Below, one piece after another: positions 1 through 18,977 of a DNA stretch of 64,000 nt. Position 1 is the first letter of the stretch, and each line of letters starts with the position of its first letter. The notes beneath the pieces are model-generated. The model saw only the letters and a list, made by a program, of their open reading frames with translations. It did no database searches and was not told where the DNA came from. A program made the position numbers and the translations under genes. The stretch lies in contig NZ_CP009282.1 of assembly GCF_000758605.1 (NCBI RefSeq), positions 2,480,001-2,544,000 on the forward strand. The letters are read 5' to 3'. Source of the stretch: Paenibacillus sp. FSL R5-0912. Lineage in GTDB: Bacteria; Bacillota; Bacilli; Paenibacillales; Paenibacillaceae.

Positions 1-761
1 CTGCGGTGCGCATGGCCTTGTCGGCCCGCTCTTCGCTGCCGAGCCACTGCTTCAGCAGGGCCTCGGCCCGCATCGCATGCCCGCCGCCATGGAGGTTCGA
101 GGTGACGCTGCGGGCCGCGCCTACCCGGCCGGCCATGCCGGTGAATTCCCAGACGCCTTGGCCGTTCTTCTGCACGAGCATCCGGTAGTCATGGAACCGG
201 CCGCTTGGCAAGCGGAGCGGAATGCCCTGCTGGATGAGGAACCGTCCGCCGAGACACCACTGGCGGACAATCGAATCCAGGCGGCTCAGCGACACCTTGC
301 GGGGCGCGATGATCTGCCGGCTCTGGCGGCGTCCCTGGATATCGTAGAGGGACTTGCCTTCCCGCTGCCGCTCAATCCGCAGGATGCCGCGTCCGCCCGT
401 GCCGTTAATCGGCTTGACGTAGACGACCGGACTGAACTTCAGCATGCGGTGGAGATCGGCGGAAGACTGATATAGAAGAGTCTCCGGCATATGCTGCCGG
501 AAACGGCTTTTCTGTGAAAAGGTCTGGTGGACCGTCCATTTATTACGCAGCGGACGGTTCAGGAAGGTCAGATGATCATACCGCGCGCGGAAGCGCAGCA
601 ACTGCTGGAACCGCTGGCTGCGCTGAATCCGGCAGCGGTCATAGATCATATTCGGGAAGGAGCGCCATTTGCGCGACCATGTTCCGCTTTTGACATCATA
701 GACAAGGGCATGGATCTGTTCTTTGCTTACATGCACATCTGCGGGGGTAAACACAAAGACA
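1..761 (-). pseudogene. 5'-truncated duplicate of the yheC-like ATP-grasp gene (runs off left edge)
   Basis: This segment repeats 6911-7671 with only five single-base differences (positions 17, 218, 530, 545 and 590). Read on the minus strand it encodes the same protein as the intact gene at 6654-7784, from about residue 39 to residue 291, and then leaves the window. The first 38 codons and the ribosome binding site are missing; homology stops abruptly at 761, where the AT-rich island begins. All five differences fall on third codon positions and are synonymous (Phe, Arg, Val, Pro, Lys), and no internal stop is seen. So the copy looks like a recently beheaded but otherwise well-kept coding sequence. 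It has no start of its own and is probably not translated. Confidence 0.85.
1..761. repeat. Long direct repeat, left copy (partner 6911-7671)
   Basis: A 761-bp direct repeat with a constant offset of 6910 bp and about 99.3% identity by eye. The left end lies outside the window. The two copies bracket the lipase/RCC1 island, so homologous recombination between them would excise about 6.9 kb and leave one intact yheC-like gene. Confidence 0.95.
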
Positions 762-1079
762 CGTGCATTATAGACGTATATATGACAAGCGAGAAATTGC
801 TTTGAGTTTATCTGCATATTCAGAACTCAAAGTCTTCTTGTGTCATATACCTTCAGTCAGTTTAAATAAAGTTTTATCTAACTCAGTGGTTAGGTTTTAC
901 TATTCATTTTATCCTTCAATTTTCCGATGATTACATTAAAAGGGTATTTAGTATTTAAGTTCAAATAAGTCATGGGAATTCAATTATGGTATCAGAGCTA
1001 GTGAAGTAGGGGGAATACTCAACGAAGGGCGATGATATCATACGAGCTTTAGTAAATGAGTAGAAAAGGGGGACGAAAG
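762..1079. other. AT-rich intergenic stretch at the island's left junction
   Basis: About 320 bp without a supported gene. Base composition changes sharply at 762 from the GC-rich yheC fragment to AT-rich DNA. A 9-bp inverted repeat with a 15-nt loop lies at 800-832. The rest presumably holds the promoter for the following two genes, but no convincing -35/-10 pair was identified. No integrase, transposase or terminal inverted repeat is visible at the junction. Confidence 0.5.
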
Positions 1080-1535
1080 ATGAAATCAATAAAGACAGTA
1101 CTTCAAGCTATTTTGTATGTATTACTGGTTGTTGGGCTCCATCTAATCTTAATCTATTTTTTAAAGATAAAAATTGAGGGATGGGGAACAGAATTATTAA
1201 AAATCTCATTTAAGGTGTATTTTATACCGCTTTTGTTATGTTTTACTAATTCTTTTTTGCTTATAAGAACTCAGCGGATAAAGTACAATGTCAACTGGTT
1301 TTTAGTAACTATGCTCTCAAGCCTTTTACTTCTTTTATTTTTCAAAGCAATACAAGATAACGGCGATAGTGAGTATGGAGTTTTTGTTTCTACTAAATTT
1401 TTTCCGGAATATCAAGTGGAGATGCTCTTTCTGCTTCCTTGGAGTATTTCTATTATTCAATTTATTTTGGCTCTATATTATCTATTCAAAATAAGAAAAA
1501 ATCTACTCTTTCTAAATAATAAAGGGGGAATGTAA
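1080..1535 (+). CDS. Small integral membrane protein of unknown function
   Basis: A 151-residue protein with four predicted hydrophobic segments (roughly residues 7-30, 40-62, 74-92 and 115-137), short charged loops and a basic C-terminus. The start at 1080 is preferred over the in-frame ATG at 1056 because a GGGGGA ribosome binding site sits six bases upstream. The stop is one base before the ATG of the lipase gene, so the two are almost certainly co-transcribed and translationally coupled. I do not recognise the family. Its context suggests a partner of the secreted lipase, for example in export, immunity or anchoring, but that is inference. Codon use is strongly AT-biased, unlike the flanking yheC genes. 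Confidence 0.7.
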   Translation: MKSIKTVLQAILYVLLVVGLHLILIYFLKIKIEGWGTELLKISFKVYFIPLLLCFTNSFLLIRTQRIKYNVNWFLVTMLSSLLLLLFFKAIQDNGDSEYGVFVSTKFFPEYQVEMLFLLPWSISIIQFILALYYLFKIRKNLLFLNNKGGM

Positions 1536-1536
1536 T

Positions 1537-2439
1537 ATGAAAAGAATATTTTCATTAAGTATAATTATTACAATTTTTGTTTCTTTATTTAATCTAACTG
1601 GAAATCTTCAAAACTATACATATGCTAATTCAGTTCATGAATCTGTATACAGCAATAATCCAACCGAACAGTCTTCGATCGGAATATTGAGTACATCAGT
1701 ATACCCAGATAATGCAGTCGTGAAATATGGAGAAAAGATATACATTAATTATAGTTTTAATGCTGAGGCTCACCCAGTACTCATTAATATTTATAAAGAT
1801 GGTGTCTTACAAGCGGATTATTATTATAAACCATCAAGCTGGGGCGACCATTTTTCTTATGAACCCAAAGATGAAGGAAGTTATAGATTTGTTGTAAAGC
1901 CGACCGATCAACCTTACTATACTAATGAGTGTACGGTTACTGTTTATAAAGATAGAATAATATTTTTACCTGGAATCATGGGAAGTGAGTTGTTTCTGGG
2001 AGATGAGCAGGTATGGGAGCCTGAGGATAGCAAGAATGTCCCTCGCATTCGCGAACAAATTAATAGCCTGCAGATGAGCGCTTTAGGAGAAAGTAAAAAT
2101 AGCATAAGTGTTCGCAATAGTATCAGTGATTATGATGGTATCCTTGCTTTCTTTAAAAATGAAGGATATCACGTCGTTGATTTTCCTTACGATTGGAGAT
2201 TAGGCTCCAGTATAAATGCACAGAAGTTGAAAGAAAGAATAAATATTGAGCGGGCTGCGTCTCCATATAGTAACTACTATATTGTTGCTCATAGTATGGG
2301 AGGACTTGTCGCCACTGAATTTATCAGACAAGGGAATAGTAATCTAATAAAAAAATTGATCACAATTGGCACACCATTTCTTGGCGCTCCACAAGCGTTC
2401 AATATGCTTGAAACAGGAAATCTTACAATGAATACTTAG
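1537..2439 (+). CDS. LCAT-type secreted lipase/acyltransferase, N-terminal part (frameshifted)
   Basis: A 300-residue fragment. It begins with a signal peptide (basic MKR, hydrophobic core to about residue 20, likely cleavage near residue 31), then a beta-sandwich-like domain (about 50-137), then an alpha/beta hydrolase of the lecithin:cholesterol acyltransferase type. Visible motifs are the oxyanion PGIMGS (145-150), the PYDWRL signature (217-222) and the nucleophile elbow AHSMGG with Ser253. The frame ends at a TAG at 2437 in the middle of the hydrolase domain. The continuation of the fold is found at once in another frame (open from 2412). So this is the 5' part of one gene extending to 6563, broken by a single-base loss (or two-base gain) within 2412-2436. 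Alone it lacks the catalytic Asp and His. Confidence 0.85.
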   Translation: MKRIFSLSIIITIFVSLFNLTGNLQNYTYANSVHESVYSNNPTEQSSIGILSTSVYPDNAVVKYGEKIYINYSFNAEAHPVLINIYKDGVLQADYYYKPSSWGDHFSYEPKDEGSYRFVVKPTDQPYYTNECTVTVYKDRIIFLPGIMGSELFLGDEQVWEPEDSKNVPRIREQINSLQMSALGESKNSISVRNSISDYDGILAFFKNEGYHVVDFPYDWRLGSSINAQKLKERINIERAASPYSNYYIVAHSMGGLVATEFIRQGNSNLIKKLITIGTPFLGAPQAFNMLETGNLTMNT

Positions 2440-5400
2440 CTTATTTAACAGTTGGCTCTGCAGTAAGAAATTTGGAGAAAAATACGCCATCTATTTATGA
2501 GTTACTACCCAATAAATCCTATTTTTCATACCAAACCAACGGATATATTGAAACTAAATCATATCCAAAGCCTGACTCTCCTAAAGTGAAAGTTACTAAA
2601 TATAATACCTTCAGTGAAACGGAGAATTTTATTAAGGATACTAATGATTGGTCAAATGATGTCTTGCTTGAAAATGCCAAGAATTTTCATTCTTCTTTGG
2701 ATGTACTTAATACACTAAAAAAGGTAGATTCATACTTTATAGTTGGCGATCAGAGAGAAACTCCTGGTAAATTGGTTTACTACGTGCCTTCGTTAAACGA
2801 TAAATATCTGAGTGACGTGAAAGTTATACAGGGAGATGGCGTTGTTCCTACATCAAGTGCTACAGTAGGTTTTAAGCTTGATGAAACACGAACTTTTTAT
2901 ATTGGCAGGTCTCATGTAGGTCTTGTGAAGAGTCCTGAAGTGCAGCAAAAAATCTTGAAAATTTTAAAGGATAAACCTAATGAATTTGTCTCCGATAAAA
3001 TTCGTGATGAGACTAAAGAAATAAAAACTTTAAAATTCAAGGCGGAATGTCCGGTAGAACTACATATATATGATTCCTCAGGCAATCATACAGGCCCAAC
3101 AGGCGCTGAAACTTTTGAGTCTAAAATCCCAGACATCAACTACTTTACAGACGGTGAAACAAAGATTGCTCTAGTTAATGATACTGAAGACTATAAAGTT
3201 CGTATCATTGGTACAGGATATGGTGAATTAACTTTCTCGATAGTATGGGCAAATGAAAAAGATATTGAAGATAGAACATTGCGTTTTGATAATGTTGCCG
3301 TTACTCCCACTTCAGTATTTATAGCCGATGTTAATCAGAATGGGCAAGTCGTACTTCAGATAGATCAGAATGGCGATGATAACTTCGAAGGTAGCATTAG
3401 CCCTACTGTTGATCTAGATCTTGGAGGAACCCAAGACGAAACAATTCCAACACTAAGCTCACACATTGATGGGGTAAAAGGCGTCAATGAATGGTATGGG
3501 AAAAACGTTTATTATAACTTATCTGGAGAAGATAATGCATCTGGTGTTTATAAGTACTTTTATGATCTTAATGATTCTGAATACAAAGAGTACACAGAAC
3601 CATTAGCATTGCCTAACACAGGAATATATAATTTCAAGTCGTATGTTCGAGACAAGAATAGAAATGATTCGGAAGTCTTAACGGAAACGGTGAAGGTAGA
3701 CACTACCAATCCGACTGTACCCGTAATGACGATCGATCCAACAGCTTGGACGAATAAGTATGTAACGATTACATTAGGCGGCGGGACAGACGCTGATAGC
3801 GGTTTTCAAAAATATCAGTACAAAATCAACCAAGACGGGGAGTGGAAGGACTATACTGTTCCTTTTGTGATCGATTCAGAAGGTTTATACAATGTGTATG
3901 CCAGATCAGTAGACAATGTATTTAACCTTAGTGCAGAAGTAACTGGGGTGGCTAAAGTTGATAAGACCAATCCTCCTAAACCGATAATGACAATTGAACC
4001 ATCCAAATGGACTAATCAGTCGGTCTCCATAACATTGTCGGGTGGAACTGATACAGATAAAGGCTTTCCTAATAGTGGGTTTCAAAAGTATCAATATAAG
4101 ATTGATGGGGGTGAATGGAAGGATTACACCACACCTATTATTATTGATACGGAGGGTTTATTTAAGGTTATAGGTCGCTCAGTAGACACTGCTACTAACC
4201 TCAGTGAAGAAGTCTCTGGGGAAGCAAAAATTGATAGGACAAAGCCTATCGTACCAATAATGACAATTGAGCCTTTAAAATGGACAAATCAGTTCGTCAC
4301 AGTGACCTTATCTGGAGGTTTCGATACGGATAAAGGTTTCCCAAATAGTGGATTTCAAAAATATCATTATAAGATTGACAGGGGAGAATGGAAGGATTAT
4401 ACAACACCTATAATTATTGATACTGAAGGATTATATACCATTTATGCGAGAGCGGCAGATATTGCAACTAATCTTAGTGAGGAAGTTACGGGGGAAGCTA
4501 AAGTTGATAGAATAAATCCTTCATCACCAAGGAATTTCATTACGAAACTGTTGAGAGGAAACAAAGTGACGCTCTCATGGTCGCCATCTACTGATAACGT
4601 AGCGGTTACTAGTTACGATTTATATCAAGATTCTAAGTTAGTTGGAAATGTAGTGAATCCTGAATTCACATTTGAAAATCTTGTAGCAAATAGAGATTAT
4701 ATATTCAAAGCTGTTGCACGGGATGAAGCAGGTAACTCCTCTATTGCAGCCAGTTTCACAGTACGAACTCCAGTAAATCTCGCAGTGGGATCAGATCATA
4801 CTTTGCAGATAAAGGAAGACGGAACGGTAAGAGGCTGGGGAATGAATAGTTCTGGAGAACTGGGAGATGGGACGAACTCGACTAAAACTACAGCAGTCTC
4901 CGTTCAGGGACTAACCAGTGTAAAATCCGTGGCAGTAGGAAAACAGCATAGTATTGCGTTAAAAGAGGACGGAACTGTATGGACCTGGGGAGGAAATGCA
5001 TATGGTCAGTTGGGAAATGGACCAGGAAATAACAGTAATACACCGACCCAAGTCCGGGGCTTGGAAGGTATTGTAGCCGTTGCAGCAAGTCAGTATAGCA
5101 GTTATGCCTTGAAAAACGACGGGACCGTGTGGTCCTGGGGCGAAAATTATAATGGACAATTGGGGAATAATTCCACAATAGACCAGAGTACCCCTGTGCG
5201 GGTATTAGGCATCAGTGGGATAAGTCAAATCACGGCAGGCAAGGGTTACGCTTACGCCATGACGAGTGCAGGGACGGCATGGGGATGGGGAGATGGAAGA
5301 AGTTATCAAATCCCGGGATCGTTAGGATCAAACATGTTAATGGCTGTTCCAATGACGGGATTAGAAGATTTAGCAAGTATTGTGGCAGGAGAAATAGGTA

Positions 5401-6563
5401 ATCGTGGACTTGCACTGAAAAAAGATGGAAGTGTAGTACTGTGGGGAGGCAACTATCAGAGGGTCTTCACATTGAACCCGTTAAGTGGAATTCAAACTAT
5501 CGTAGGCGGTGGTGGTAACTTTGCGATCCGGGAAGATGGGAGTTTGTGGAGATGGGATGGATATACACCTGTAAAAGTTGAAGGAATAAGCGAAGTGAGC
5601 GCTGTAGGAGTGGCGTACAACGACGACCAACGGAAGATTTATACGGCGGCCGTTAAAACCGATGGAAGCGCGTGGGCTTGGGGAGACGTTAACCAACATG
5701 GGCAGCTCGGAGACGGGACGACGGATGTGCACACAACACCTGCATTAGTGAAAGAGAATACGGCTCCAGAGGCAGTACTGACCTATCCTTTGGGAAGTAA
5801 AGAAGCACCGGAGAAAAGTAATGTAAATCAGCCGACCATCCGGTGGATTCAAAAAGATGCAGCATTAACACGTTTTGCGGCGTACCAGGTGCAGATATTG
5901 GATGCAAGTGGAAATGAAATAGTGGATTCGGGCATCGTGAGTCAGCCGATGACTGCTACTGAGAACACTTGGATGGTGAGTGAAGCGTTACCGTCAGGTC
6001 AAGCCTTCCAAGTGAAAGTGAAAGTGTTTGACGAACACTTGTGGTCGGAATGGTCTGAGTTAGGTTGGATAGAGATAAATAACATGATCTTAAAAACAAA
6101 AAAACAACTTGATAGCTCTGTTGAAATGGCTCAATCAACAATCTATGTTGGTGAACCAACAATTGTTAAGTTAAGTGTTGTTGATAGTGTCTATAGTGAT
6201 GACGGTATTAATACAGGTATATTAAATGGAATTGCTAAAGTAAAGGTGTCAGGTTATACAATTTCAAACACTGAATTCTTTGGGAAATTCGGAGATGTAG
6301 AGCTATCAGCTACTGGTACTACGACAATTGATGTTCAATTTCATGATGGTATCGCAGAAATTCCATTAATTCTAACGATGTCTGGTAAACAGTCCATAGC
6401 ATTCGAAATTGTTGATCTTGAGAACAGTTTAAGATTAGTTGAAATTGAAGTGCTTCCTAACGATTTGAGTAATGTCTTATTATTTCCATCGCCTACATTC
6501 AATGAGGCGCCAATAAAAGATATTGCATATTCTCATAAAAGTTTATTAAGAAGATTAATTTGA
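2412..6563 (+). CDS. Continuation of the LCAT lipase with Ig-like, FN3 and RCC1 domains
   Basis: The frame is open from 2412; the first plausible start is TTG at 2472 (1363 residues), but there is no good ribosome binding site and the protein begins mid-domain, so it is better read as the C-terminal part of the gene starting at 1537. Numbered from 2472: the rest of the LCAT domain with GDGVVP (Asp122) and RSHVGLV (His148), completing the Ser-Asp-His triad; a beta-rich region; three tandem repeats of about 90 residues (roughly 410-680) resembling OmpL47/Ig-like cell-surface repeats; a fibronectin type III domain (about 680-768); seven RCC1 blades (about 770-1092), each with a DGT/DGS-x-x-x-WG core, fitting a seven-bladed propeller; and two further beta domains. 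No sortase motif or S-layer domain is visible. Function is presumably an extracellular lipid- or surface-acting enzyme. Confidence 0.8.
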   Translation, partial: NRKSYNEYLAYLTVGSAVRNLEKNTPSIYELLPNKSYFSYQTNGYIETKSYPKPDSPKVKVTKYNTFSETENFIKDTNDWSNDVLLENAKNFHSSLDVLNTLKKVDSYFIVGDQRETPGKLVYYVPSLNDKYLSDVKVIQGDGVVPTSSATVGFKLDETRTFYIGRSHVGLVKSPEVQQKILKILKDKPNEFVSDKIRDETKEIKTLKFKAECPVELHIYDSSGNHTGPTGAETFESKIPDINYFTDGETKIALVNDTEDYKVRIIGTGYGELTFSIVWANEKDIEDRTLRFDNVAVTPTSVFIADVNQNGQVVLQIDQNGDDNFEGSISPTVDLDLGGTQDETIPTLSSHIDGVKGVNEWYGKNVYYNLSGEDNASGVYKYFYDLNDSEYKEYTEPLALPNTGIYNFKSYVRDKNRNDSEVLTETVKVDTTNPTVPVMTIDPTAWTNKYVTITLGGGTDADSGFQKYQYKINQDGEWKDYTVPFVIDSEGLYNVYARSVDNVFNLSAEVTGVAKVDKTNPPKPIMTIEPSKWTNQSVSITLSGGTDTDKGFPNSGFQKYQYKIDGGEWKDYTTPIIIDTEGLFKVIGRSVDTATNLSEEVSGEAKIDRTKPIVPIMTIEPLKWTNQFVTVTLSGGFDTDKGFPNSGFQKYHYKIDRGEWKDYTTPIIIDTEGLYTIYARAADIATNLSEEVTGEAKVDRINPSSPRNFITKLLRGNKVTLSWSPSTDNVAVTSYDLYQDSKLVGNVVNPEFTFENLVANRDYIFKAVARDEAGNSSIAASFTVRTPVNLAVGSDHTLQIKEDGTVRGWGMNSSGELGDGTNSTKTTAVSVQGLTSVKSVAVGKQHSIALKEDGTVWTWGGNAYGQLGNGPGNNSNTPTQVRGLEGIVAVAASQYSSYALKNDGTVWSWGENYNGQLGNNSTIDQSTPVRVLGISGISQITAGKGYAYAMTSAGTAWGWGDGRSYQIPGSLGSNMLMAVPMTGLEDLASIVAGEIGNRGLALKKDGSVVLWGGNYQRVFTLNPLSGIQTIVGGGGNFAIREDGSLWRWDGYTPVKVEGISEVSAVGVAYNDDQRKIYTAAVKTDGSAWAWGDVNQHGQLGDGTTDVHTTPALVKENTAPEAVLTYPLGSKEAPEKSNVNQPTIRWIQKDAALTRFAAYQVQILDASGNEIVDSGIVSQPMTATENTWMVSEALPSGQAFQVKVKVFDEHLWSEWSELGWIEINNMILKTKKQLDSSVEMAQSTIYVGEPTIVKLSVVDSVYSDDGINTGILNGIAKVKVSGYTISNTEFFGKFGDVELSATGTTTIDVQFHDGIAEIPLILTMSGKQSIAFEIVDLENSLRLVEIEVLPNDLSNVLLFPSPTFNEAPIKDIAYSHKSLLRRLI

Positions 6564-6598
6564 ACGGTGATAGTTCTAAATGTTTAATATCTTAAATA

Positions 6599-6638
6599 AG
6601 CAAATAACCGCCCCTTTACGGAGAGGCGGTTATTTGCT
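6599..6638. terminator. Bidirectional terminator between RCC1 gene and yheC operon
   Basis: A 14-bp inverted repeat (AGCAAATAACCGCC and its complement) around a 12-nt loop, lying between two convergent stops at 6563 and 6654. The A/T-rich outer stem supplies a U-rich 3' side in both directions. Confidence 0.8.
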
Positions 6639-6653
6639 GTTATCTAACATTCT

Positions 6654-7784
6654 TCATTCCTCAACCGTCTTCGCCGAGCTCGGCGTATTCTTGTTCTTAT
6701 ACACCCACATCGCATATTCCAGCGGGCGTACCAGCGCTTTGCGGTAAGTGCTATTGTCGCCGGAGCGGGCGAAGACCTCGCGGGCCGGCTTGGGGTTGAC
6801 CTCCAGCACGTAGATCTTGCCCTCGCGGTCGATCGCGAGGTCCAGGGCCAGCTCGCAGAGCGCGCCGAAGCTATCTTCGAGGTACGCGGCAGCTTCGATT
6901 CCCAGCTTCTCTGCGGTGCGCATGGCTTTGTCGGCCCGCTCTTCGCTGCCGAGCCACTGCTTCAGCAGGGCCTCGGCCCGCATCGCATGCCCGCCGCCAT
7001 GGAGGTTCGAGGTGACGCTGCGGGCCGCGCCTACCCGGCCGGCCATGCCGGTGAATTCCCAGACGCCTTGGCCGTTCTTCTGCACGAGCATCCGGTAGTC
7101 ATGGAACCGGCCGCTTGGCAAGCGGAGTGGAATGCCCTGCTGGATGAGGAACCGTCCGCCGAGACACCACTGGCGGACAATCGAATCCAGGCGGCTCAGC
7201 GACACCTTGCGGGGCGCGATGATCTGCCGGCTCTGGCGGCGTCCCTGGATATCGTAGAGGGACTTGCCTTCCCGCTGCCGCTCAATCCGCAGGATGCCGC
7301 GTCCGCCCGTGCCGTTAATCGGCTTGACGTAGACGACCGGACTGAACTTCAGCATGCGGTGGAGATCGGCGGAAGACTGATATAGAAGAGTCTCCGGCAT
7401 ATGCTGCCGGAAACGGCTTTTCTGTGAAAAGGTCTGGTGAACCGTCCATTTATTCCGCAGCGGACGGTTCAGGAAGGTCAGATGATCATACCGCGCGCGA
7501 AAGCGCAGCAACTGCTGGAACCGCTGGCTGCGCTGAATCCGGCAGCGGTCATAGATCATATTCGGGAAGGAGCGCCATTTGCGCGACCATGTTCCGCTTT
7601 TGACATCATAGACAAGGGCATGGATCTGTTCTTTGCTTACATGCACATCTGCGGGGGTAAACACAAAGACATCCAGGCCAATCCGGCTGCCTTCAATAAT
7701 CATCCTCCGGTACACGCTCTTCTCCTCAAGCTGTTTGGCGTCATTCAGATATAGCGTGAGGATGCCTAAGACGGGCTCTGGCAC
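6654..7784 (-). CDS. YheC-like ATP-grasp protein, short form (paralogue 5 of 5)
   Basis: A 376-residue member of the YheC/YheD family, annotated in Bacillus as endospore coat-associated proteins with an ATP-grasp fold. ATP-grasp features are visible: a YVKP lysine and glycine-rich loop (about 150-163), the DYRMLVQKNG strand (about 228-237), a SNLHGGG turn and the metal-site segment LEVNPKP near residue 325. This suggests an ATP-dependent carboxylate-amine ligase, substrate unknown. It is the last gene of the minus-strand operon; its start overlaps the GNAT gene by 19 bp. A 761-bp internal part is duplicated at 1-761. The product resembles B. subtilis YheC (short) rather than YheD (long). Confidence is high for family and low for the reaction. 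Confidence 0.85.
   Translation of the reverse strand: MPEPVLGILTLYLNDAKQLEEKSVYRRMIIEGSRIGLDVFVFTPADVHVSKEQIHALVYDVKSGTWSRKWRSFPNMIYDRCRIQRSQRFQQLLRFRARYDHLTFLNRPLRNKWTVHQTFSQKSRFRQHMPETLLYQSSADLHRMLKFSPVVYVKPINGTGGRGILRIERQREGKSLYDIQGRRQSRQIIAPRKVSLSRLDSIVRQWCLGGRFLIQQGIPLRLPSGRFHDYRMLVQKNGQGVWEFTGMAGRVGAARSVTSNLHGGGHAMRAEALLKQWLGSEERADKAMRTAEKLGIEAAAYLEDSFGALCELALDLAIDREGKIYVLEVNPKPAREVFARSGDNSTYRKALVRPLEYAMWVYKNKNTPSSAKTVEE
6911..7671. repeat. Long direct repeat, right copy (partner 1-761)
   Basis: This is the right copy of the 761-bp repeat, inside the intact yheC-like gene at 6654-7784. It corresponds to codons 38-292 of that gene. Confidence 0.95.
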
Positions 7785-8284
7785 AGGAGTTCACCTTCTT
7801 GTGGGAGAATAGTAGGTCCGGCTGCAGTCCGGGAGGACCGCAGCAGCAGCGTGGGTTTACCCGTAGGGCCGTTAACCAGGTCTACGGCGGCTAGCCCGCT
7901 GTTGAAGCACATTTTCAGGCTGGCCGGGTTATCGCAGGCTACATGGCATTCCAGCTGCCCAAGACGTTCCAGCTGCGCGGTAAGCAGGGCTGTGCCGGTA
8001 TGCCTCTTGCGGTACAGGGGATGAACGGCTACTACACAGGCCTCCTTGCCGTAGCCGGAGACGAAGCTGACACCTGCGAGCTGACGGCCGTTCTGACCCC
8101 GTACAGTGGCAACGAGTAGCGAAACTCCCGGCAAGGCGAGCTGCTCCGGTGTCAGCCGGGCCAGCTGCCTGCATCCGCGAAGCGTAATCCGCTGCTCCCC
8201 ATACTCCCTCAGGAATTCAAGCAATCCGGCTAGTCTGGAATTCCACTGCACCGGATTGCTGTCGTAGAGTGAGGATATCTGCAT
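7766..8284 (-). CDS. GNAT-family N-acetyltransferase in the yheC/yheD operon
   Basis: A 172-residue protein with a GNAT fold. The acetyl-CoA-binding motif A is visible as VAVHPLYRKRHTGTALL (about residues 89-105, an RxxGxA-type pyrophosphate loop). Downstream is the ACDNPASLKMCFNSG segment typical of motif B. The last 20 residues look like an unstructured tail. The start is supported by an AAAGGAAGTG ribosome binding site. It lies 21 bp after one ATP-grasp gene and overlaps the next by 19 bp, so it is embedded in the operon. The acceptor is unknown; the context suggests a small amine or a peptide modified together with the ATP-grasp enzymes. Confidence 0.8.
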   Translation of the reverse strand: MQISSLYDSNPVQWNSRLAGLLEFLREYGEQRITLRGCRQLARLTPEQLALPGVSLLVATVRGQNGRQLAGVSFVSGYGKEACVVAVHPLYRKRHTGTALLTAQLERLGQLECHVACDNPASLKMCFNSGLAAVDLVNGPTGKPTLLLRSSRTAAGPTILPQEGELLCQSPS

Positions 8285-8305
8285 GGTGTCACTTCCTTTA
8301 CGGGT

Positions 8306-9424
8306 TTAATTAGGCTTAGTCTGGCGGGATAGATGCTGGCCATAATGAAAAATGCGTTCCAGCGACAGCTTGCGGATCGCCGGCTCATCGAATTTCATCG
8401 GCCTGGAATTGGCCTCGAAGAACCACAGCCCGCCTTCTTCATCGACGCCGAGGTCCATTGACATCTCGCCCAGCATGGTGGCCGAAGCGCGTTCAATCTG
8501 CCGGGCAATCAGCAGCGCCGTGGTGGGGACATTCTTCAGGATGGCCGCAGCCTGCTCTGCTCCGAAGGTTCCCTCCAGCATGCTGGAGGGCTCTTCAATG
8601 CTGCCGCCGCGCGGCACATGGGTAGTGATGCTGCGGGCTCCGGCCAGCCGTGCGCCAATGCCGGTGACCGCCCAGGCGCCACGGCCGTTCTTCTGCAGCA
8701 GCACGCGAAGATCGAAGGGGCGCCCGTGGTGCGCAGCAAGCACAATGGCCTGCTGCACGATGTAGCGGGATACCCCTTTTTCCCTGACGATTCTGGCCCA
8801 CAGACGTTCGATGGACGCGGCTTTGTAGGTCGTGTTCTTCTTGCCGCTCTGGATCTGCAGCCGGTAAGGCAGCATAGCATCCATCCGGTATCTCAGCCGC
8901 ATAATCCCTTTGCCGGCTTTGCCGTTCTCCGGTTTGAGGTAGAGACTGTCGTGATTCTTCAGCATGGCCGTCAGGGTTGCTGCACTGCGCAGACGGCGGG
9001 TCTTGGGCACATGCTTTGAGGTTGCTTTGGATTCCTTGAGCCACTCGAAGAGATTCCATTTATTGAAAAATCTCGGGTTGTACAGCTGGATCTCAGGATG
9101 CTCCAGACATTCCGCTATTTTGCGGGCGACCGGTGCCTTCTCCTCTTCATCGCGGTTCGGAATCCGGTTATAAATCACCTGCGGCAGCGGGACAGGAATG
9201 GAGTACCAGAGCTTGCCGCTGGCAGAGGGGACGAAGCCGTTCACCATCCGCTCCTCCAGCTTCAGGTCGCGGACGGTGACGACATATACCAGATAACCCA
9301 TTTCTTTGCCGGTGCGGATAATATCGCGGAAGTTATTGCGGTTGCCGCGAAACTGCTTCAGCCGGTCACTGGTCGTCAGGATGGCGATAACGGGCTTGCC
9401 GGGGTCAGGGATACGGCTGTTCAC
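8306..9424 (-). CDS. YheC-like ATP-grasp protein, short form (paralogue 4 of 5)
   Basis: A 372-residue YheC/YheD-family protein. It shows the family landmarks in order: an N-terminal strand (ILTTSDR), the LYLKPENGKAGKGIMRL nucleotide-binding loop (about 153-169), FDLRVLLQKNG (about 235-245), a THVPRGGS turn, and the MDLGVDEEGG...FEANSRP metal-binding region (about 325-347). It lacks the extra N-terminal beta domain of the longer paralogues. The start overlaps the stop of the upstream gene by 4 bp (ATGA), indicating translational coupling. Function by family: spore coat-associated ATP-grasp ligase, substrate unknown. Confidence 0.85.
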   Translation of the reverse strand: MNSRIPDPGKPVIAILTTSDRLKQFRGNRNNFRDIIRTGKEMGYLVYVVTVRDLKLEERMVNGFVPSASGKLWYSIPVPLPQVIYNRIPNRDEEEKAPVARKIAECLEHPEIQLYNPRFFNKWNLFEWLKESKATSKHVPKTRRLRSAATLTAMLKNHDSLYLKPENGKAGKGIMRLRYRMDAMLPYRLQIQSGKKNTTYKAASIERLWARIVREKGVSRYIVQQAIVLAAHHGRPFDLRVLLQKNGRGAWAVTGIGARLAGARSITTHVPRGGSIEEPSSMLEGTFGAEQAAAILKNVPTTALLIARQIERASATMLGEMSMDLGVDEEGGLWFFEANSRPMKFDEPAIRKLSLERIFHYGQHLSRQTKPN

Positions 9425-10794
9425 AAGTCATCCCTCCTGCGGAATTTGCTGAGATACAGACAATGCTCCAGGATGTGCTCAATGGAAGCTTTGCCCTCAG
9501 CGCGCAGGGAGGGGTGGCGGAAGATAGAGCGTCCCGGTTTGGCATTGGCCTCGAACATCCAGATATCCTCATCCTGGTCAATCCCGAGATCAAATCCAAT
9601 CTCACCGAGCAGATGCCGGTGCTGGATTTCCAGGGATTCTGCCAGCTTGACGGCTGTTGTTTTGGCGCGCTGCAGCACTTCATCCGATCTTGCGCCGAAG
9701 ACACGGCCCAGTGCCTGCTGCGGTGTAAGCAGGGCGCCGCCGTTCTTCAGGTGGGTGGTGACACTGCCCCGGCCGGCTTTCTTGGCCCCGATGCCGACAA
9801 CTACCCATTGGTTGCTGCCGTTCTTGTGCATATGGAAGCGGAAATCAATCGGGCAGCCGTCAATCTCAATCAGCCGGATCCCCTGCTGAACCACATAATT
9901 CTGCAGGCTCTGTCCGTGACGGCCGCGCAGCATGCGCATCAGGCTGTCGAAGCTGGTGAAGCGCAGCAGCACATTCTTCCCGCTCTTACGGTAACGGGCG
10001 AAGTACCCCTTCTTCGGCAGGTAGGTCAGGCGGTAGATGCCGTGTCCAAGACTGCCTGCGGAAGGTTTGTAATAGACAAAGTGGTGGCGGTCCAGCATAT
10101 CGCGCATCTGTTCTGTGCTGGGATTGCTGTGTGTTTCAGGCACGAAGCGGTTGGCGGCACCGTCATTCTCCAGCAGGCGGTAAACATCCGATTTATTGAA
10201 GAAGCTCCAGTTGAAGTAGGGAATCTTCTTGCGTCCGAACCGCTCCCGCAGCTGGTTGATGTATGGGGAAGTCTCCGCTCTGCGGCTGGGCAGACGGTTG
10301 TAGACGACATCCGGCAGCGGCACCATCTTACGCTCGAATTTGCCGCCGGCCGTGAGGAAATAGCCGTTGACCTGCTCCTGCTGCCAGTCGATGTCACGCG
10401 GCATGAAGGCGAAGATATAGCATTTGTTGCTGCCTTCGCGCAGCAGCTGCTTGATGAAGCCGGTACGGGAGCCAAAAGGCTGTGCCGCGGAGGCGGGCCC
10501 GTCGGAAAGTACGCCGACCAGCGGTCCGAGCTGGACCTCATCATTCTGCAGGTTGCGCAAATAAATGCCGCCTGATTTCGGAACCTTGATTGCGCTCTTC
10601 ACTCCCGAGGCCAGGAAGAGATGCTTGCCGGCGCGTTTGATCGGCTTGATCATCGCCGGGATGGCATCCTTCCCAAGCCGCAGGCGGATGTTTTTCTTGC
10701 CGGATAATTTCAGGCTTTTCATCAGTTCACCCGAGACATAGACAACTCTTTGGGGCTGCTTGGTGAAATGCACATTGCAAAAAGTGAGACCCAT
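9421..10794 (-). CDS. YheD-like ATP-grasp protein, long form (paralogue 3 of 5)
   Basis: A 457-residue YheC/YheD-family protein with an N-terminal beta-rich extension of about 90 residues (includes SGELMKSLKL and a KVPKSGGIYLRNL strand), followed by GPLVGVLSDG and the ATP-grasp core: YYKPSAGSLGHGIYRL (about 242-257), DFRFHMHKNG (about 318-327), a THLKNGG turn, and EIGFDLGIDQDEDIWMFEAN plus KPGR (about 400-424). Its length matches B. subtilis YheD (about 450) rather than YheC. The start abuts the preceding stop with no spacing. Likely function: ATP-dependent ligase acting on a spore surface component; the substrate cannot be read from sequence. Confidence 0.85.
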   Translation of the reverse strand: MGLTFCNVHFTKQPQRVVYVSGELMKSLKLSGKKNIRLRLGKDAIPAMIKPIKRAGKHLFLASGVKSAIKVPKSGGIYLRNLQNDEVQLGPLVGVLSDGPASAAQPFGSRTGFIKQLLREGSNKCYIFAFMPRDIDWQQEQVNGYFLTAGGKFERKMVPLPDVVYNRLPSRRAETSPYINQLRERFGRKKIPYFNWSFFNKSDVYRLLENDGAANRFVPETHSNPSTEQMRDMLDRHHFVYYKPSAGSLGHGIYRLTYLPKKGYFARYRKSGKNVLLRFTSFDSLMRMLRGRHGQSLQNYVVQQGIRLIEIDGCPIDFRFHMHKNGSNQWVVVGIGAKKAGRGSVTTHLKNGGALLTPQQALGRVFGARSDEVLQRAKTTAVKLAESLEIQHRHLLGEIGFDLGIDQDEDIWMFEANAKPGRSIFRHPSLRAEGKASIEHILEHCLYLSKFRRRDDL

Positions 10795-11973
10795 TTATGA
10801 ATCCTCCTTAGGAACGATTGATATCATTCTCCCGTTGAACGGAGCTGCCGGTGAGACAGCTTGTGGTTTGCCGCTTGATGTAAGCAGCAGATGACGCGCA
10901 TAGCGCAGCGGATTCTCGGCGGCGAGCCTAGCAGCCCGGCGGTCGCCCGTCAGCCGGAACACTGTGCGCCCTGGCTTGGAATTAGCTTCAAGCAGATAGA
11001 TTCTTCCTCCGGCATCAATGCCGAAATCGAGACCGAGCTCTCCGAGTCTCCCGCAGGAATCTTCCAGCAGTGGAGGCAGGAGAGCGGCTGCTGAGATCAG
11101 CTCCTCATACAGGCTTCGGCCTGTGTTGCCGTATTCGGCAAGCAGGAAGGGCAGAGCGGGAACCGCGGTTCCCCCGCCGTGGAGATTCGAGGTAAGCGAT
11201 CCCCGGCCTCCCAGACGTACGGCCATACCGGTCATAGACCAGGCGCCGGTACCGTTCTTCTGCATCAGCACCCGCACATCGAACGGCTGTCCTCCGCTGC
11301 CGGTGAGATGCAGATATGGCTGTATGATATAGCGGTGCTGGCCGATGAAGCCGTGGATCCAGTCCAGGCCTTCGTCCAGCGTACCGAAAACATATTGAAA
11401 AGGTTCGTTCAACCGGTCTCTTCCCCGCAGACTCACTCCGCCGCCTTCGCCTTTGCCCAGAAGTACAGCGTGCATGGTGCGTTTGCCGTGGGAGCCTGTT
11501 TTGGGTTTCAGAAAAACACCGTACTCCCTTTCGGCAAGCATGTTGCCGAGTGCTTCACGGCCGCTATAAACCAGAGTTTCGGGCAGTAGGGCAGCGGCTG
11601 TACGGCTGCGCCGCAGGATCTCGTACACGCCCCATTTATCCGGGAGTCCGCGTGACCAGGGGAGACAGCGGGAGAGTACAGCCAGGGCAGCGGCTGCAGT
11701 TCTTTTCTCCTCCGGAGTCCGGTAGAAACAGCGGTTGTAGAGAATATCGGGCGGAGGTGACTGCGCAGGCACCCACTGACCTTCCTGCCAGAGATACCCG
11801 CTGACAGAGGCGCCGTCCTTGGCGACACCTTCCGGATGGAAAACAAGGACCTTCAGATCATACAACGGGGCCGCCCGGCATAGATGACTGCAGAATTCCG
11901 GTTCTGCGATGGGAGGATTCCCGTGGCGACGGCCTGTCATAATGCCAAGGAACCCCATTGCTGTTTCGGTCAT
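10795..11973 (-). CDS. YheC-like ATP-grasp protein, short form (paralogue 2 of 5)
   Basis: A 392-residue YheC/YheD-family protein. Family landmarks: FLGIMTGRR at the N-terminus, VFLKPKTGSHGKRTMHAV loop (about 152-169), FDVRVLMQKNG (about 228-238), SLTSNLHGGGTAVP turn (shared with paralogue 5), and ELGLDFGIDAGGRIYLLEANSKPGR (about 323-347). The C-terminal 25 residues are extra. It lies 10 bp after the first gene of the operon and directly abuts the third. The Gly-rich loop is somewhat altered (HGKR) relative to paralogues, possibly changing nucleotide contacts. Same predicted role as its neighbours. Confidence 0.85.
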   Translation of the reverse strand: MTETAMGFLGIMTGRRHGNPPIAEPEFCSHLCRAAPLYDLKVLVFHPEGVAKDGASVSGYLWQEGQWVPAQSPPPDILYNRCFYRTPEEKRTAAAALAVLSRCLPWSRGLPDKWGVYEILRRSRTAAALLPETLVYSGREALGNMLAEREYGVFLKPKTGSHGKRTMHAVLLGKGEGGGVSLRGRDRLNEPFQYVFGTLDEGLDWIHGFIGQHRYIIQPYLHLTGSGGQPFDVRVLMQKNGTGAWSMTGMAVRLGGRGSLTSNLHGGGTAVPALPFLLAEYGNTGRSLYEELISAAALLPPLLEDSCGRLGELGLDFGIDAGGRIYLLEANSKPGRTVFRLTGDRRAARLAAENPLRYARHLLLTSSGKPQAVSPAAPFNGRMISIVPKEDS

Positions 11974-11983
11974 GATGTCCTCC

Positions 11984-13351
11984 TTATAACCCGGCCAGAT
12001 AGCGGCAGTATAGAATCATTTGTTTGACGGAGGGGCGGATCTTCTGGTCGTTCAGCGGTGTATTGTCGTTCTTGGACGGTTTGGAGTTGACTTCTAGCAG
12101 CCAGATTCTGCCCGACTGGTCCAGCGCAAGGTCGATGCCCAGCTCCCCGAAATGCGCCGGGATATAAGTCTCTACGCCTCTGGCGATCGCCAGTGCTGCC
12201 CGGGGAAGCTGAACCTGGGAGCTTTCCTTCGCTCCGGGCGGTAGATTGCTTTTGCCGATGGCTTCCCGGACCGTACTGAGCGTCCCGCCCCGGGCGAGAT
12301 TAGAGACAAAATGATTACTTCCGGCGGTCCGGGCCACAATGGAGGTGACGCCCCATTTGCCGGTGCCGTTCTTCTGTACGAGTGCCCGGAAGTCCACCGG
12401 CCGCCGTCCAAGCTCCAGCAGGGGCAAGCCCTGCTGAATCTGGTAGCGGGTCGTTTTCATCTTCGGGGCAATGGACCCAAAAAGCTTCGCCAGACTGGGA
12501 TAGCTTTGCTTGCGTGTCCCCAGCGGTGTTGTCGACTGCAGCCGATAGCCGCCGCCGTCTTCTTTGGAGATGCGCAGAATGCCTTTGCCCAGGCTGCCGC
12601 GTACAGGTTTCAGGAACACACTGGGATAATTGCTGCACATTCTTTTCAATACGGCGAAGCCATTCAGGGCATGCGACTCCGGCAAATACCGCTGCAGGGC
12701 GGGATCTTGTGCCAGCGCTTCGAATACCTCTGTCTTGTCAAGGAACTTTTCATTGAAAAAATGAGTTCCGTAGCGGGATTTTACATCCGCCAAAAAATGC
12801 TGTACGCTAGGTTTGTTCTCTACCTTTCGCGTCGTCAGCCGATTGTTGATCACATCGGCCACAGGAAGACTCAGCTTGCGCCAGCCCTCATCGTATACCC
12901 AGCCCTGGATGGTAGTGCTGCGCGTTTCCAGCGCTTCCGGGGTAAAGAAATATACATAGGCGCCCTGTGCATGGCAGGCATTGGTCAGTTCCCGGCAGAA
13001 CATCGTGATCTGGCCGAACACTCTGTCGGGATGCTCGGGATGGTCCCGGCTCACCAGAACTCCAATCATCGGCCCCAGCCGCAGATTGCGGCTGCCTGAA
13101 CTATAGGAAGCGTTAAGCGTGAGGCGCTGCCTTAAGCCCAGCCTGCGCGCCAGCCCTTCGCTTACGCGCAGGCTGTCGGATTTGGGAACCGGAATAACGG
13201 TAACCTCCTGCCGGAAAGAGCCGAAGGTTAGCTGGATTGTTCCGTGCGCCGGTATTTTGAGCCTCTTCATGGATTTGTCGCCTAGCATTACAGCGTTTTC
13301 CTGCAGGATGCCCGAGTGGACCGTTTGGACCGGGATCTTGAGTTGGGACAT
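11984..13351 (-). CDS. YheD-like ATP-grasp protein, long form (paralogue 1 of 5, first in operon)
   Basis: A 455-residue YheC/YheD-family protein counted from the ATG at 13351, which has a GGAAGGAGA ribosome binding site; an in-frame ATG at 13378 lacks one. It has an N-terminal beta domain of about 95 residues (strands around LKIPAHGTIQLTFG and VTVIPVPKSD), then GPMIGVLVSRD and the ATP-grasp core: VFLKPVRGSLGKGILRI (about 238-254), DFRALVQKNG (about 318-327), SNLARGG, and ELGIDLALDQSGRIWLLEVN with SKP (about 405-428). It is the promoter-proximal gene of the minus-strand operon. Regulation is probably by a mother-cell sporulation sigma factor as reported for B. subtilis yhe genes, but no convincing promoter was found here. 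Confidence 0.85.
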   Translation of the reverse strand: MSQLKIPVQTVHSGILQENAVMLGDKSMKRLKIPAHGTIQLTFGSFRQEVTVIPVPKSDSLRVSEGLARRLGLRQRLTLNASYSSGSRNLRLGPMIGVLVSRDHPEHPDRVFGQITMFCRELTNACHAQGAYVYFFTPEALETRSTTIQGWVYDEGWRKLSLPVADVINNRLTTRKVENKPSVQHFLADVKSRYGTHFFNEKFLDKTEVFEALAQDPALQRYLPESHALNGFAVLKRMCSNYPSVFLKPVRGSLGKGILRISKEDGGGYRLQSTTPLGTRKQSYPSLAKLFGSIAPKMKTTRYQIQQGLPLLELGRRPVDFRALVQKNGTGKWGVTSIVARTAGSNHFVSNLARGGTLSTVREAIGKSNLPPGAKESSQVQLPRAALAIARGVETYIPAHFGELGIDLALDQSGRIWLLEVNSKPSKNDNTPLNDQKIRPSVKQMILYCRYLAGL

Positions 13352-13683
13352 CGTGGATCTCCTTCCGGTAGGCAGCATGATGCCGGCAATATGAATCTTT
13401 AGGGTTACATATCATTCATCATATGGAGACATCTGACCCTTGGTGATTGACCTATTCTTTAAAAAGCCGTGCCGGGCGGATTAAATGTCCGGCGGCGGTG
13501 ACCCGTTCAGCAGATGGAGTACAGGTGCAGGCCGCACAGACAGAAGTCTGGCCGCTGGAGGGGGAATAACGTGACCGCGAAATTTGGGCGGATACACAAA
13601 ACTTAAGCGTATGCTTACGAAGCGAGTTTTGCGAAGAAGACTCAGGGAAGCAGATGCTAACAAAACTTTTAGGAGGATTTATA
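13352..13683. other. Divergent intergenic region between yheD-like operon and yheA
   Basis: About 330 bp separating divergent genes, so it should hold both promoters. The last third carries a leader found elsewhere in the window: an inverted-repeat-like run around 13600-13640 ending in ACAAAACTTTTAGGAGG directly before yheA. A CATATGAT box near 13417-13424 on the minus strand resembles a sigma-E/K -10, but there is no convincing -35, so no promoter is claimed. Confidence 0.4.
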
Positions 13684-17942: not shown

Positions 17943-18446
17943 TCAGGTGCGCTTATAAGGAGCGATCTCCACCCAGATTTGCAGCACACCCTCCATAACG
18001 AGCATAGTGCGGATTCTGACAGTATATTCTTTCTCGCGTACAATATAGATTTTGCCGTCCAGCAGCAGGCGGGCCAGCTTCCCGTCAGAATCGATTTCAA
18101 ACATGCTGCGCCCGCGCATCGGCTCCAGATCGCTGACCAGCTTCCTGAGGATTTCCTTGACAGTCACCGTGTCCAGCACAGCGGTGCCTTCCTTAACTTT
18201 GCTGTCCTCGGTGCGGACCTTAATTTCCCGGATTACGGTGGAGGTATTGTTGTATTTTTTGAGCGTGTCAATGTCATTGCGGTACTCCTCGATCTGTATC
18301 CGGAGCTCCTGATTGCTTAGCCAGAGCACGTTGTATCCCATATGATAAATGGCGTTATATACCACGGCGCCCACAATCATTCCCAGCACAAAAACGGCAG
18401 CAATCTGCGAGAAACGCCGGTAGCGGTGAAACGGCGGCAGGCGCAT
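17943..18446 (-). CDS. ytrI: Sporulation membrane protein YtrI
   Basis: A 167-residue protein: a short basic N-terminus, one membrane helix (about 13-35), a coiled segment (LSNQELRIQIEEYRNDIDTL) and a beta-rich extracytoplasmic domain. Its order directly after ytrH is as in B. subtilis, where YtrH and YtrI are mother-cell sporulation proteins needed for efficient spore formation. AAGGGGTGAT is the ribosome binding site. Confidence 0.75.
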   Translation of the reverse strand: MRLPPFHRYRRFSQIAAVFVLGMIVGAVVYNAIYHMGYNVLWLSNQELRIQIEEYRNDIDTLKKYNNTSTVIREIKVRTEDSKVKEGTAVLDTVTVKEILRKLVSDLEPMRGRSMFEIDSDGKLARLLLDGKIYIVREKEYTVRIRTMLVMEGVLQIWVEIAPYKRT

Positions 18447-18510
18447 GGATTCATCACCCCTTTAAATATAAGAATGTATCTGCTCAGCGCTATCCATTAT
18501 CCTTCTGTTT

Positions 18511-18831
18511 CTACTTGCCGCACACCCATTTGACTAACTCACTGCCCATATGAGCGCCCAGAAAAGCGAAGACCAGATAGAGAATCTGCTTGATGGCGGG
18601 GGAGAGGTTACCTCCCAGCATATTGCTCTCAATGACCCGCATCGGGTCGATCGTTCCGCCGACGGCGGCAGCCAGTGCCCAGATTTTGATCCGGTCGGCG
18701 ATATCCAGCATGGTGTGCGTAGGCGGCTGCAGAGAGACCACGGCTCCGATCCCGCCCAGCAGGGAACCGCCCAATACAATGCCGAAGGCGATGAAGAAGT
18801 CGAGGACGGCTTTGCTCAGGAAAATATTCAT
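18511..18831 (-). CDS. ytrH: Sporulation membrane protein YtrH
   Basis: A 106-residue hydrophobic protein with three helices (about 8-32, 45-63 and 82-100); the conserved GGTIDPMRVIESN segment lies between helices 2 and 3. Two adjacent ATGs (18834, 18831) follow AAGGAG; the second has better spacing (7 nt). It is the first gene of ytrH-ytrI, divergent from dnaE, as in B. subtilis. Presumed sporulation sigma-E control was not verified in sequence. Confidence 0.85.
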   Translation of the reverse strand: MNIFLSKAVLDFFIAFGIVLGGSLLGGIGAVVSLQPPTHTMLDIADRIKIWALAAAVGGTIDPMRVIESNMLGGNLSPAIKQILYLVFAFLGAHMGSELVKWVCGK

Positions 18832-18977
18832 CATAAGGCTCCTTCCCGGTCCAGGCAATTGCTTATCCGCTGCCTGTCCTTATGCTCTTAATCCATTCTA
18901 TGGGCGGTTCCCCCTCTAATATGATAAAATAGTTTCATCTTATGTTTTGATTTTGGAACTGAAGGGAAGTGGGGATA

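Follow-up and report, generated by a model that had tools for sequence, protein, structure and literature searches.

Several sporulation genes of Bacillus are known to be split by intervening elements. In B. subtilis, SPbeta, with SprA (YokA) and SprB, occupies spsM, and PMC4191935 describes this target as a spore-envelope gene that is restored by precise excision, while the skin element splits sigK. In Bacillus cereus ATCC10987, gerE holds gin, a 28.6-kb island that is not a prophage and carries serine recombinases (PMC5595907), and vfbin (in spoVFB) and yin (in yabG) are prophage-like intervening elements (PMC10747680). Intervening elements in sporulation genes lie almost all in mother-cell genes (PMC6957869). 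Here we analyse the yheC gene of Paenibacillus sp. FSL R5-0912 (G000), on a stretch of 64,000 nucleotides (C1:2480001-2544000 of a single-contig 7.72 Mb genome), referred to below as the window, whose left end holds two copies of yheC on either side of an AT-rich insert. Comparison with related genomes leads us to propose that this left end is most probably the remnant of an island that a large serine recombinase (LSR) inserted at a fixed site in yheC, i.e. an attL-type half site and cargo beside an intact gene.

Intact islands at this site in relatives resemble SPbeta in that their LSR is alignable over its full length with that of SPbeta, and in that yheC rejoins in frame in silico. They differ from it in their target and in looking like integrative and conjugative elements (ICEs) or catabolic islands, not like an active phage, and the window itself holds a remnant only. 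Skin shares with them an element-borne LSR that splits a gene, in skin a mother-cell gene and here a putative one, although both gene and LSR are different ones; moreover, the skin recombination directionality factor (rdf) gene, skr, overlaps spoIVCA (PMC6957869), whereas the candidate small gene here is separate from the LSR gene. Compared with gin, the target gene and the genus are different, one LSR family is found in all seven islands, and remnants occur beside a full gene; vfbin and yin likewise lie in other genes. A full-text literature search, with most subscription papers outside its reach, gave no report that we recognised of an element in yheC or of intervening elements in Paenibacillus. 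The parts consulted of PMC13164025, PMC5627462, PMC4527741 and PMC12020853 do not treat insertions; their subjects are a YheC/D-like gene close to the origin of replication, lists of spore-coat genes and a proteome.

A sequence-only reading of the window had noticed that a direct repeat brackets the insert. The repeat is real, although it is 1,018 bp long and not 761 bp, the length to which the window edge trims it; the remaining 257 bp extend left of position 1. As that reading had stated, the right copy is complete, with 376 codons, and the left copy lacks codons 1-38 and starts at the onset of AT-rich DNA. The right copy (6654-7784, minus strand; ATPgrasp_YheCD) is presumably the functional one; the left copy (1-761, minus strand; C1:2479744-2480761 in full) starts at position 761, where GC content falls from ~66% (1-500) to ~32% (751-1250). 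The left copy also runs to a normal 3' end, as had been anticipated: its stop codon lies 257 bp left of the window and is followed by its own terminator-like hairpin (identified by eye). The two copies differ by five mismatches (99.5% identity), all synonymous, so that codons 39-376 are 100% identical as protein, and their 3' flanks differ. From left to right the gene order is yheC codons 376-39, attL, a small gene that we call cargoA, lipase, RCC1, a terminator, the full yheC with the attB core, and a GNAT-like gene.

Campbell-type single-crossover integration leaves a direct repeat bracketing the insert, with a breakpoint that is not fixed at an attachment (att) site. The DNA of the full gene was searched in 100 genomes of the genus, and among the matches listed yheC was split at the same codon in at least seven (G017, G026, G030, G048, G053, G077 and G086). 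In these genomes codons 39-376 lie at attL and codons 1-43 at attR, placing attB at codons 39-43. A scan of named genomes likewise gave a long yheC match starting at this codon in P. jilunlii (residues 39-376) and in Paenibacillus sp. PastM-3; in both, residues 1-43 sit apart from the 3' part, still adjoining the GNAT-like gene. In each of the seven, the 3' part has a left arm that closely resembles ACGTCTATAATGNACGT ahead of the core, and the 5' stub has a right arm that closely resembles ACACGTTNATTATAGACGT. Both junctions, attL and attR, can be aligned among these seven genomes, and attL can be aligned with the window too, where the left copy has the same left arm at its breakpoint (747-777, minus strand; attP left arm and core joined to codon 39). 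The core of attB in the full yheC, GTCTTTGTGTTTAC, is at 7657-7670 (minus strand).

The deduced attP arms are inverted repeats matching at 14-17 of 19 positions, a value reached by 0 or 1 of 2,000 shuffles; such symmetry is what a serine-integrase attP should show. The 31-bp boundary site occurs once in the window (at up to three mismatches) and in none of 100 shuffles; its pattern was written post hoc, and the independent evidence is therefore the recurrence of the site in other genomes. No second perfect match to the left arm of the window site occurs in the genome, although two further matches have two mismatches. The attL alignments were built from match coordinates, as an automatic scan for attL-like motifs was too strict and gave none. 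By these alignments, the truncation point of the left copy is a non-random, attL-type half site of an LSR. Because an LSR site lies at this breakpoint in the relatives, an integrase site marks the window junction, contrary to the claim in the sequence-only reading that no integrase was needed. Neither an LSR nor an attR was found in the window; the attL-type site is all that is left there, making the locus a remnant and not a further member of the set of islands.

The LSR is a 520-aa open reading frame (ORF) in each of the four smaller islands, and a domain scan of the G030 protein gave Resolvase, Recombinase and Zn-ribbon domains. It was revealed by inspection of ORF lists; a regular expression for common serine and tyrosine recombinases had missed it. 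Among the 100 genus genomes, the LSR is present at 86-100% identity in exactly the seven with a split yheC (the next best is 54%), an overlap with a chance probability of 6e-11 by a hypergeometric count that ignores relatedness. A wider set of 394 genomes of the family contained a relative at E<=1e-100 in 32, with identities of at least 86% in the same seven only and a next value of 64%. Among its solved relatives, SPbeta YokA (SprA) ranks first, aligned over residues 5-513 (E 2.9e-50), and on this alignment the LSR is a full-length homologue of YokA/SprA; the best phage match has 47% identity. In G017, G077 and G086 the LSR gene lies directly at attL, with its stop codon within the attP arm. 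Upstream of the LSR in all seven islands there is a 21-bp block, TATAATACATCCATAAATATT (after position 3435 of L109, and in the six others), beyond which the DNA is largely unrelated. We considered this block as a sporulation promoter of the LSR and rejected it, as it resembles a housekeeping -10 element at least as well.

Only two products are common to all seven islands (tblastn from the G053 and G017 ORFs), namely the LSR and a protein of ~65-75 aa. The latter was found in nine of the 100 genomes, i.e. the seven split ones together with G014 and G038, in which an LSR with 54% and 47% identity, respectively, is no more than 4 kb away; it had no match in G056 and G002, whose LSR relatives are 47% and 46% identical. 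In G026 and G030 there is a frameshift close to its start, and it had no Pfam or PHROG match. Co-occurrence with the LSR is the behaviour of a cognate directionality factor, for which this small protein is a candidate. No conserved sporulation promoter was found upstream of its gene in the islands.

The islands measure 18.1 kb (G053), 24.2 kb (G048), 26.0 kb (G030), 27.7 kb (G026), 64.8 kb (G017), 71.2 kb (G077) and 76.0 kb (G086). The four smallest have a sugar-use block in common, which by Pfam comprises, in G026, ABC transport, AraC, GH43, GH28, pectinesterase and GH88 genes, and the three largest a conjugation-like core, which in G086 includes a TraG/HerA-type ATPase, an FtsK/SpoIIIE ATPase, an M23 peptidase, T2SSE and RcpC/CpaB; no relaxase was identified in the G086 island among the 20 of its 54 listed ORFs that were scanned. 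Germination genes are also present: a gerA-type operon in G030 (Pfam), similar ORFs in G026 and a GerA protein in G077. The possibility that an island brings its own yheC copy was rejected, as no yheC match was found within any of the seven. In G026, 0.5 kb from attR, there is a recombinase 3' end (the last 66 codons; L103 13853-14050, G026 C1:2534853-2535050) fused to the right attP arm's outer half, which may be left over from an island that occupied this site earlier.

When the two parts of the split gene were joined in silico at the core, an intact frame of 376 codons resulted in all seven cases. Eight remnants that lie beside another yheC copy were checked, and seven of these are fragments or bear stop codons (eight stops in the best frame in G056; four stops and frameshifts in G094; fragments in this genome's copy 0, two of G027, G066 and G086), leaving the left copy of the window as the only intact one. 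The contrast between rejoinable split genes and decayed remnants suggests that there is selection to keep split genes rejoinable.

Remnants were also surveyed in 22 further genomes, G041 and G008 among them, over up to ~18 kb left of yheC (less in G041 and G043), and were found near a full copy in three (G094, G066 and G055); G037 has one as well. The three longest remnants are each closest to the yheC of their own genome (99.5 vs 94.9% in this genome, 98.3 vs 92.4% in G094 and 84.5 vs at most 78.6% in G056), and rem2 of G027 leans to its own genome's gene (89.7 vs 88.1). Judged against G041 and G008, copy 2 of this genome probably acquired four of the five differences and copy 1 acquired one, with some of the five sites varying among other genomes. 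A coding repeat of 99.5% identity set against differing 3' flanks, together with an attB-type core, points to gene conversion, and the attB-like core of the window attL is suggested to stem from it. Gene conversion would mean that the 99.5% identity gives no date for the island. In G094, the 3' flanks of the partial (L132 13659-14479) and full (17992-19118) yheC are identical for ~60-70 bp, a stretch that takes in the terminator, before diverging abruptly.

At a distance of 3.5 Mb from its yheC, G026 has an ectopic yheC fragment with 95.4% identity to its own gene over 655 nt, flanked by cargoA on the 5' side and the C-terminus of RCC1 on the 3' side. This pair of junctions fits an excised circle, or a tandem array, and it adds weight to homologous exchange between yheC copies as a later step. 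The region as a whole (L180, G026 C1:6018001-6036000, at 6671-12494) contains cargoA, yheC codons 81-376 broken by a foreign ORF, a terminator, the C-terminal end of RCC1 and then another LSR (~40% identical).

The cargo of the window has a GC content of 38%, and the AT-rich insert is probably foreign, as the sequence-only reading had held; no DNA match to the cargo turned up in collections of plasmids and phages. A cargoA leader (835-1055, plus strand), with similar DNA in G048, G056, G066, G084 and G086 and ectopic copies in G026 and G078, precedes cargoA itself (1056-1535, plus strand), which encodes a small protein without a Pfam match whose relatives recur near yheC in other species. An LCAT/alpha-beta hydrolase domain, i.e. 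the lipase (1537-2439, plus strand), and an fn3/RCC1-repeat part (2472-6563, plus strand) are the N-terminal part and the remainder of the same long protein. Together (1537-6563) they form one continuous frame in G056 (~3,860 codons) and in G086 and are mutually out of frame here, where the long protein is probably broken, to judge from the frames. Diverged cargoA-like copies were also seen near yheC or beside lipase fragments in L138 (G066), L141 (G080), L132 (G094) and L182 (G017).

The same order of attL, cargoA, lipase, RCC1 and yheC is found in G056, where the left remnant has attL and is decayed and where protein identities to this genome are 71% for cargoA, 86% for the lipase and 82% for the first 686 aa of RCC1. 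In G086 a remnant, lipase and RCC1 are followed by a split yheC, and in G027 an attL remnant adjoins an SLH gene homologous to the SLH gene left of copy 0 in this genome; from these arrangements, the trapping of cargo with a yheC 3' end on one side and an intact or split yheC on the other is recurrent. Fourfold-site divergence between this genome and G056 is 0.32 for cargoA and the lipase and 0.45 for RCC1, against 0.40-0.45 for neighbouring genes. By this measure the island is not recent, with horizontal movement of cargo also evident. A recent arrival is not supported: the order is shared with G056 at 71-86% protein identity, and gene conversion would account for how nearly identical the copies are.

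Purely vertical descent of the cargo from an ancestor shared with G056, which had fitted the fourfold-site values, was rejected, as cargoA-lipase has higher identity to G078 and G044 (86-87% nt), although these are more distant, than to G056 (79%) and horizontal movement is needed; vertical descent may still have had a part. Between this genome and G078, cargoA-lipase is 86% identical over 961 nt and yheC only 76% at the nucleotide level. The ectopic yheC remnant of G078 has 78.9% identity to G078's own yheC over 598 nt, against 69% over only 362 nt for this genome, and a metagenome-derived locus (L050) scores slightly above G078's own gene. A native yheC end joined to foreign cargo is what site-specific insertion predicts.

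We propose that the locus arose in four steps. An LSR attB lies at yheC codons 39-43, and the comparison shows an island there in seven relatives. Such an insertion would have occurred in an ancestor of this genome, with later loss of the LSR and attR leaving attL and cargo behind. The presence of an intact right copy beside attL needs a further event, probably homologous exchange: such exchange may have restored an intact yheC on the right side of the cargo, with a sister chromosome, conspecific DNA or a circle as the source of the intact allele and the redundant left part staying in place, or a pre-existing tandem copy may have survived. Gene conversion between the copies would then have produced the 99.5% identity. 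In species with intact islands the likely working mode would be that the island excises precisely, perhaps in the sporulating mother cell, as skin and SPbeta do.

The explanation offered in the sequence-only reading was that a circle with a 5'-truncated yheC and cargo entered by one homologous crossover without an integrase. The structure of the window is compatible with a single crossover, and the ectopic fragment of G026, which joins yheC to both cargo ends, is circle-like, and homologous exchange between yheC copies is probable. However, a truncated allele on a circle is not supported as the whole account of the truncation: a circle leaves unexplained why the breakpoint is the LSR site of seven other genomes and why an attP arm lies at the junction, and a foreign circle should bring a foreign yheC, whereas the left copy is native. 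We consider this very unlikely as the sole route, and a circle may have had a role later, in restoring the full copy. An assembly artefact is more improbable still. A near-identical 1-kb repeat is a classical assembly risk, but no evidence for an artefact was found, and the different 3' flanks, the single-contig genome and the similar arrangement in G056 counter it.

Two other explanations are less improbable. The island may have entered one of two tandem yheC copies by means of the LSR, with LSR, attR and 5' stub deleted afterwards and the right copy never interrupted. This gives the same product with one transfer fewer, yheC-like genes already stand in a tandem row at the locus, and the partial yheC of G094 shares a terminator with its full copy; two full-length yheC orthologues side by side were, however, seen in none of the matches listed or loci examined, and we regard this route as possible but somewhat unlikely. 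It is unlikely, to a slightly greater degree, that the cargo moves independently by an unspecified mechanism and that the attL is an older, unrelated neighbouring scar. Such independence would agree with cargoA and lipase fragments lying away from yheC in G078, G044 and G017 and with cargoA relatives near yheC without remnants in several genomes. It would also agree with the lack of cargoA and lipase in the intact islands; on the other side, a yheC remnant and cargo genes occur together in this genome, G056 and G086, and ectopically in G026 and G078.

Several observations weigh against the proposal that the window is the remnant of an LSR island. Neither cargoA nor the lipase turned up in any of the seven intact islands, and weak matches in G086 were the only ones for RCC1, so the arrival of the window cargo with an LSR is inferred. 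This genome yielded no LSR of the same family (best match 25%), no second yheC 5' stub and no copy of the small protein; with LSR, attR stub and candidate directionality factor all lacking here, the window attL rests on comparison. Its core is GTCTTTG, of the attB type, in place of the GTTATTG of the seven split genomes and G056 (GTTATTA in G027). Four shorter remnants (copy 0 of this genome, rem1 of G027, rem_b of G066 and that of G086) match another genome equally well or better. In G026, G030, G048 and G053 the LSR is 15-18 kb inside from attL, which indicates that the four smaller islands are rearranged or composite. The nearest sisters, G041 (over 8.7 kb) and G008 (over 38 kb), have neither island nor remnant. 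Finally, yheC is a gene of the YheC/D ATP-grasp family, which has several members here (four neighbours at 25-33%), and it is a putative counterpart of B. subtilis yheC.

The remaining features of the locus are as follows. A short stretch (778-834), bounded by the attP arm on one side and the conserved leader of the cargo on the other, falls within a strong predicted hairpin (776-850, -27.9 kcal/mol) that lies between attL and cargoA; a lost recombinase gene may have left its decayed 3' end in this stretch, although the likeness of the 50 bp next to the arm to the LSR 3' end is weak and we do not claim it. A terminator-like hairpin (6600-6637, by eye) separates the RCC1 gene from the full yheC. 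To the right, a GNAT-like gene (7766-8284, minus strand; Pfam match below cut-off) anchors the locus in relatives, followed by four further yheC-similar genes (8306-13378, minus strand; 25-33% protein identity) in an order conserved in relatives. About 2 kb further left of the left copy is a third, badly decayed yheC copy (copy 0; L008 15552-15955), and between the two are a DUF421 gene and two fragments that we take, from their sequence, to be kamA-like and for which a Pfam scan gave no match. This trio (L008 16211-17626), with stops between the two fragments, is also found left of yheC in G093.

In B. subtilis, yheC belongs to the sigma-E regulon and is raised by SpoIIID (PMC517825), and it is listed among inner-coat genes (PMC4527741). 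By analogy, yheC of Paenibacillus is probably a spore-coat gene, and it is plausible that the islands excise when the cells sporulate, in the manner of skin and SPbeta. More broadly, we tentatively suggest a sporulation-linked rearrangement in Paenibacillus, an idea that we doubt a little more than we believe. An LSR and a new small directionality factor would insert ICE-like or sugar-catabolic islands, some with germination-receptor operons, into the coat gene yheC and, in the mother cell, excise them from it. Once the LSR is lost, the split gene would be stranded until recombination supplies an intact yheC again, and repeated cycles would leave yheC 3' ends with trapped cargo, the window being one such layer. 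The fossils suggest a fate for such islands after recombinase loss, a stage that we did not meet in the literature consulted on these elements. The LSR, the candidate directionality factor that closely tracks it and the mapped attB form a testable set for Paenibacillus genetics. If the suggestion is true, yheC would be a further sporulation gene that serves as an integrase landing site, and the first that we could find for Paenibacillus.

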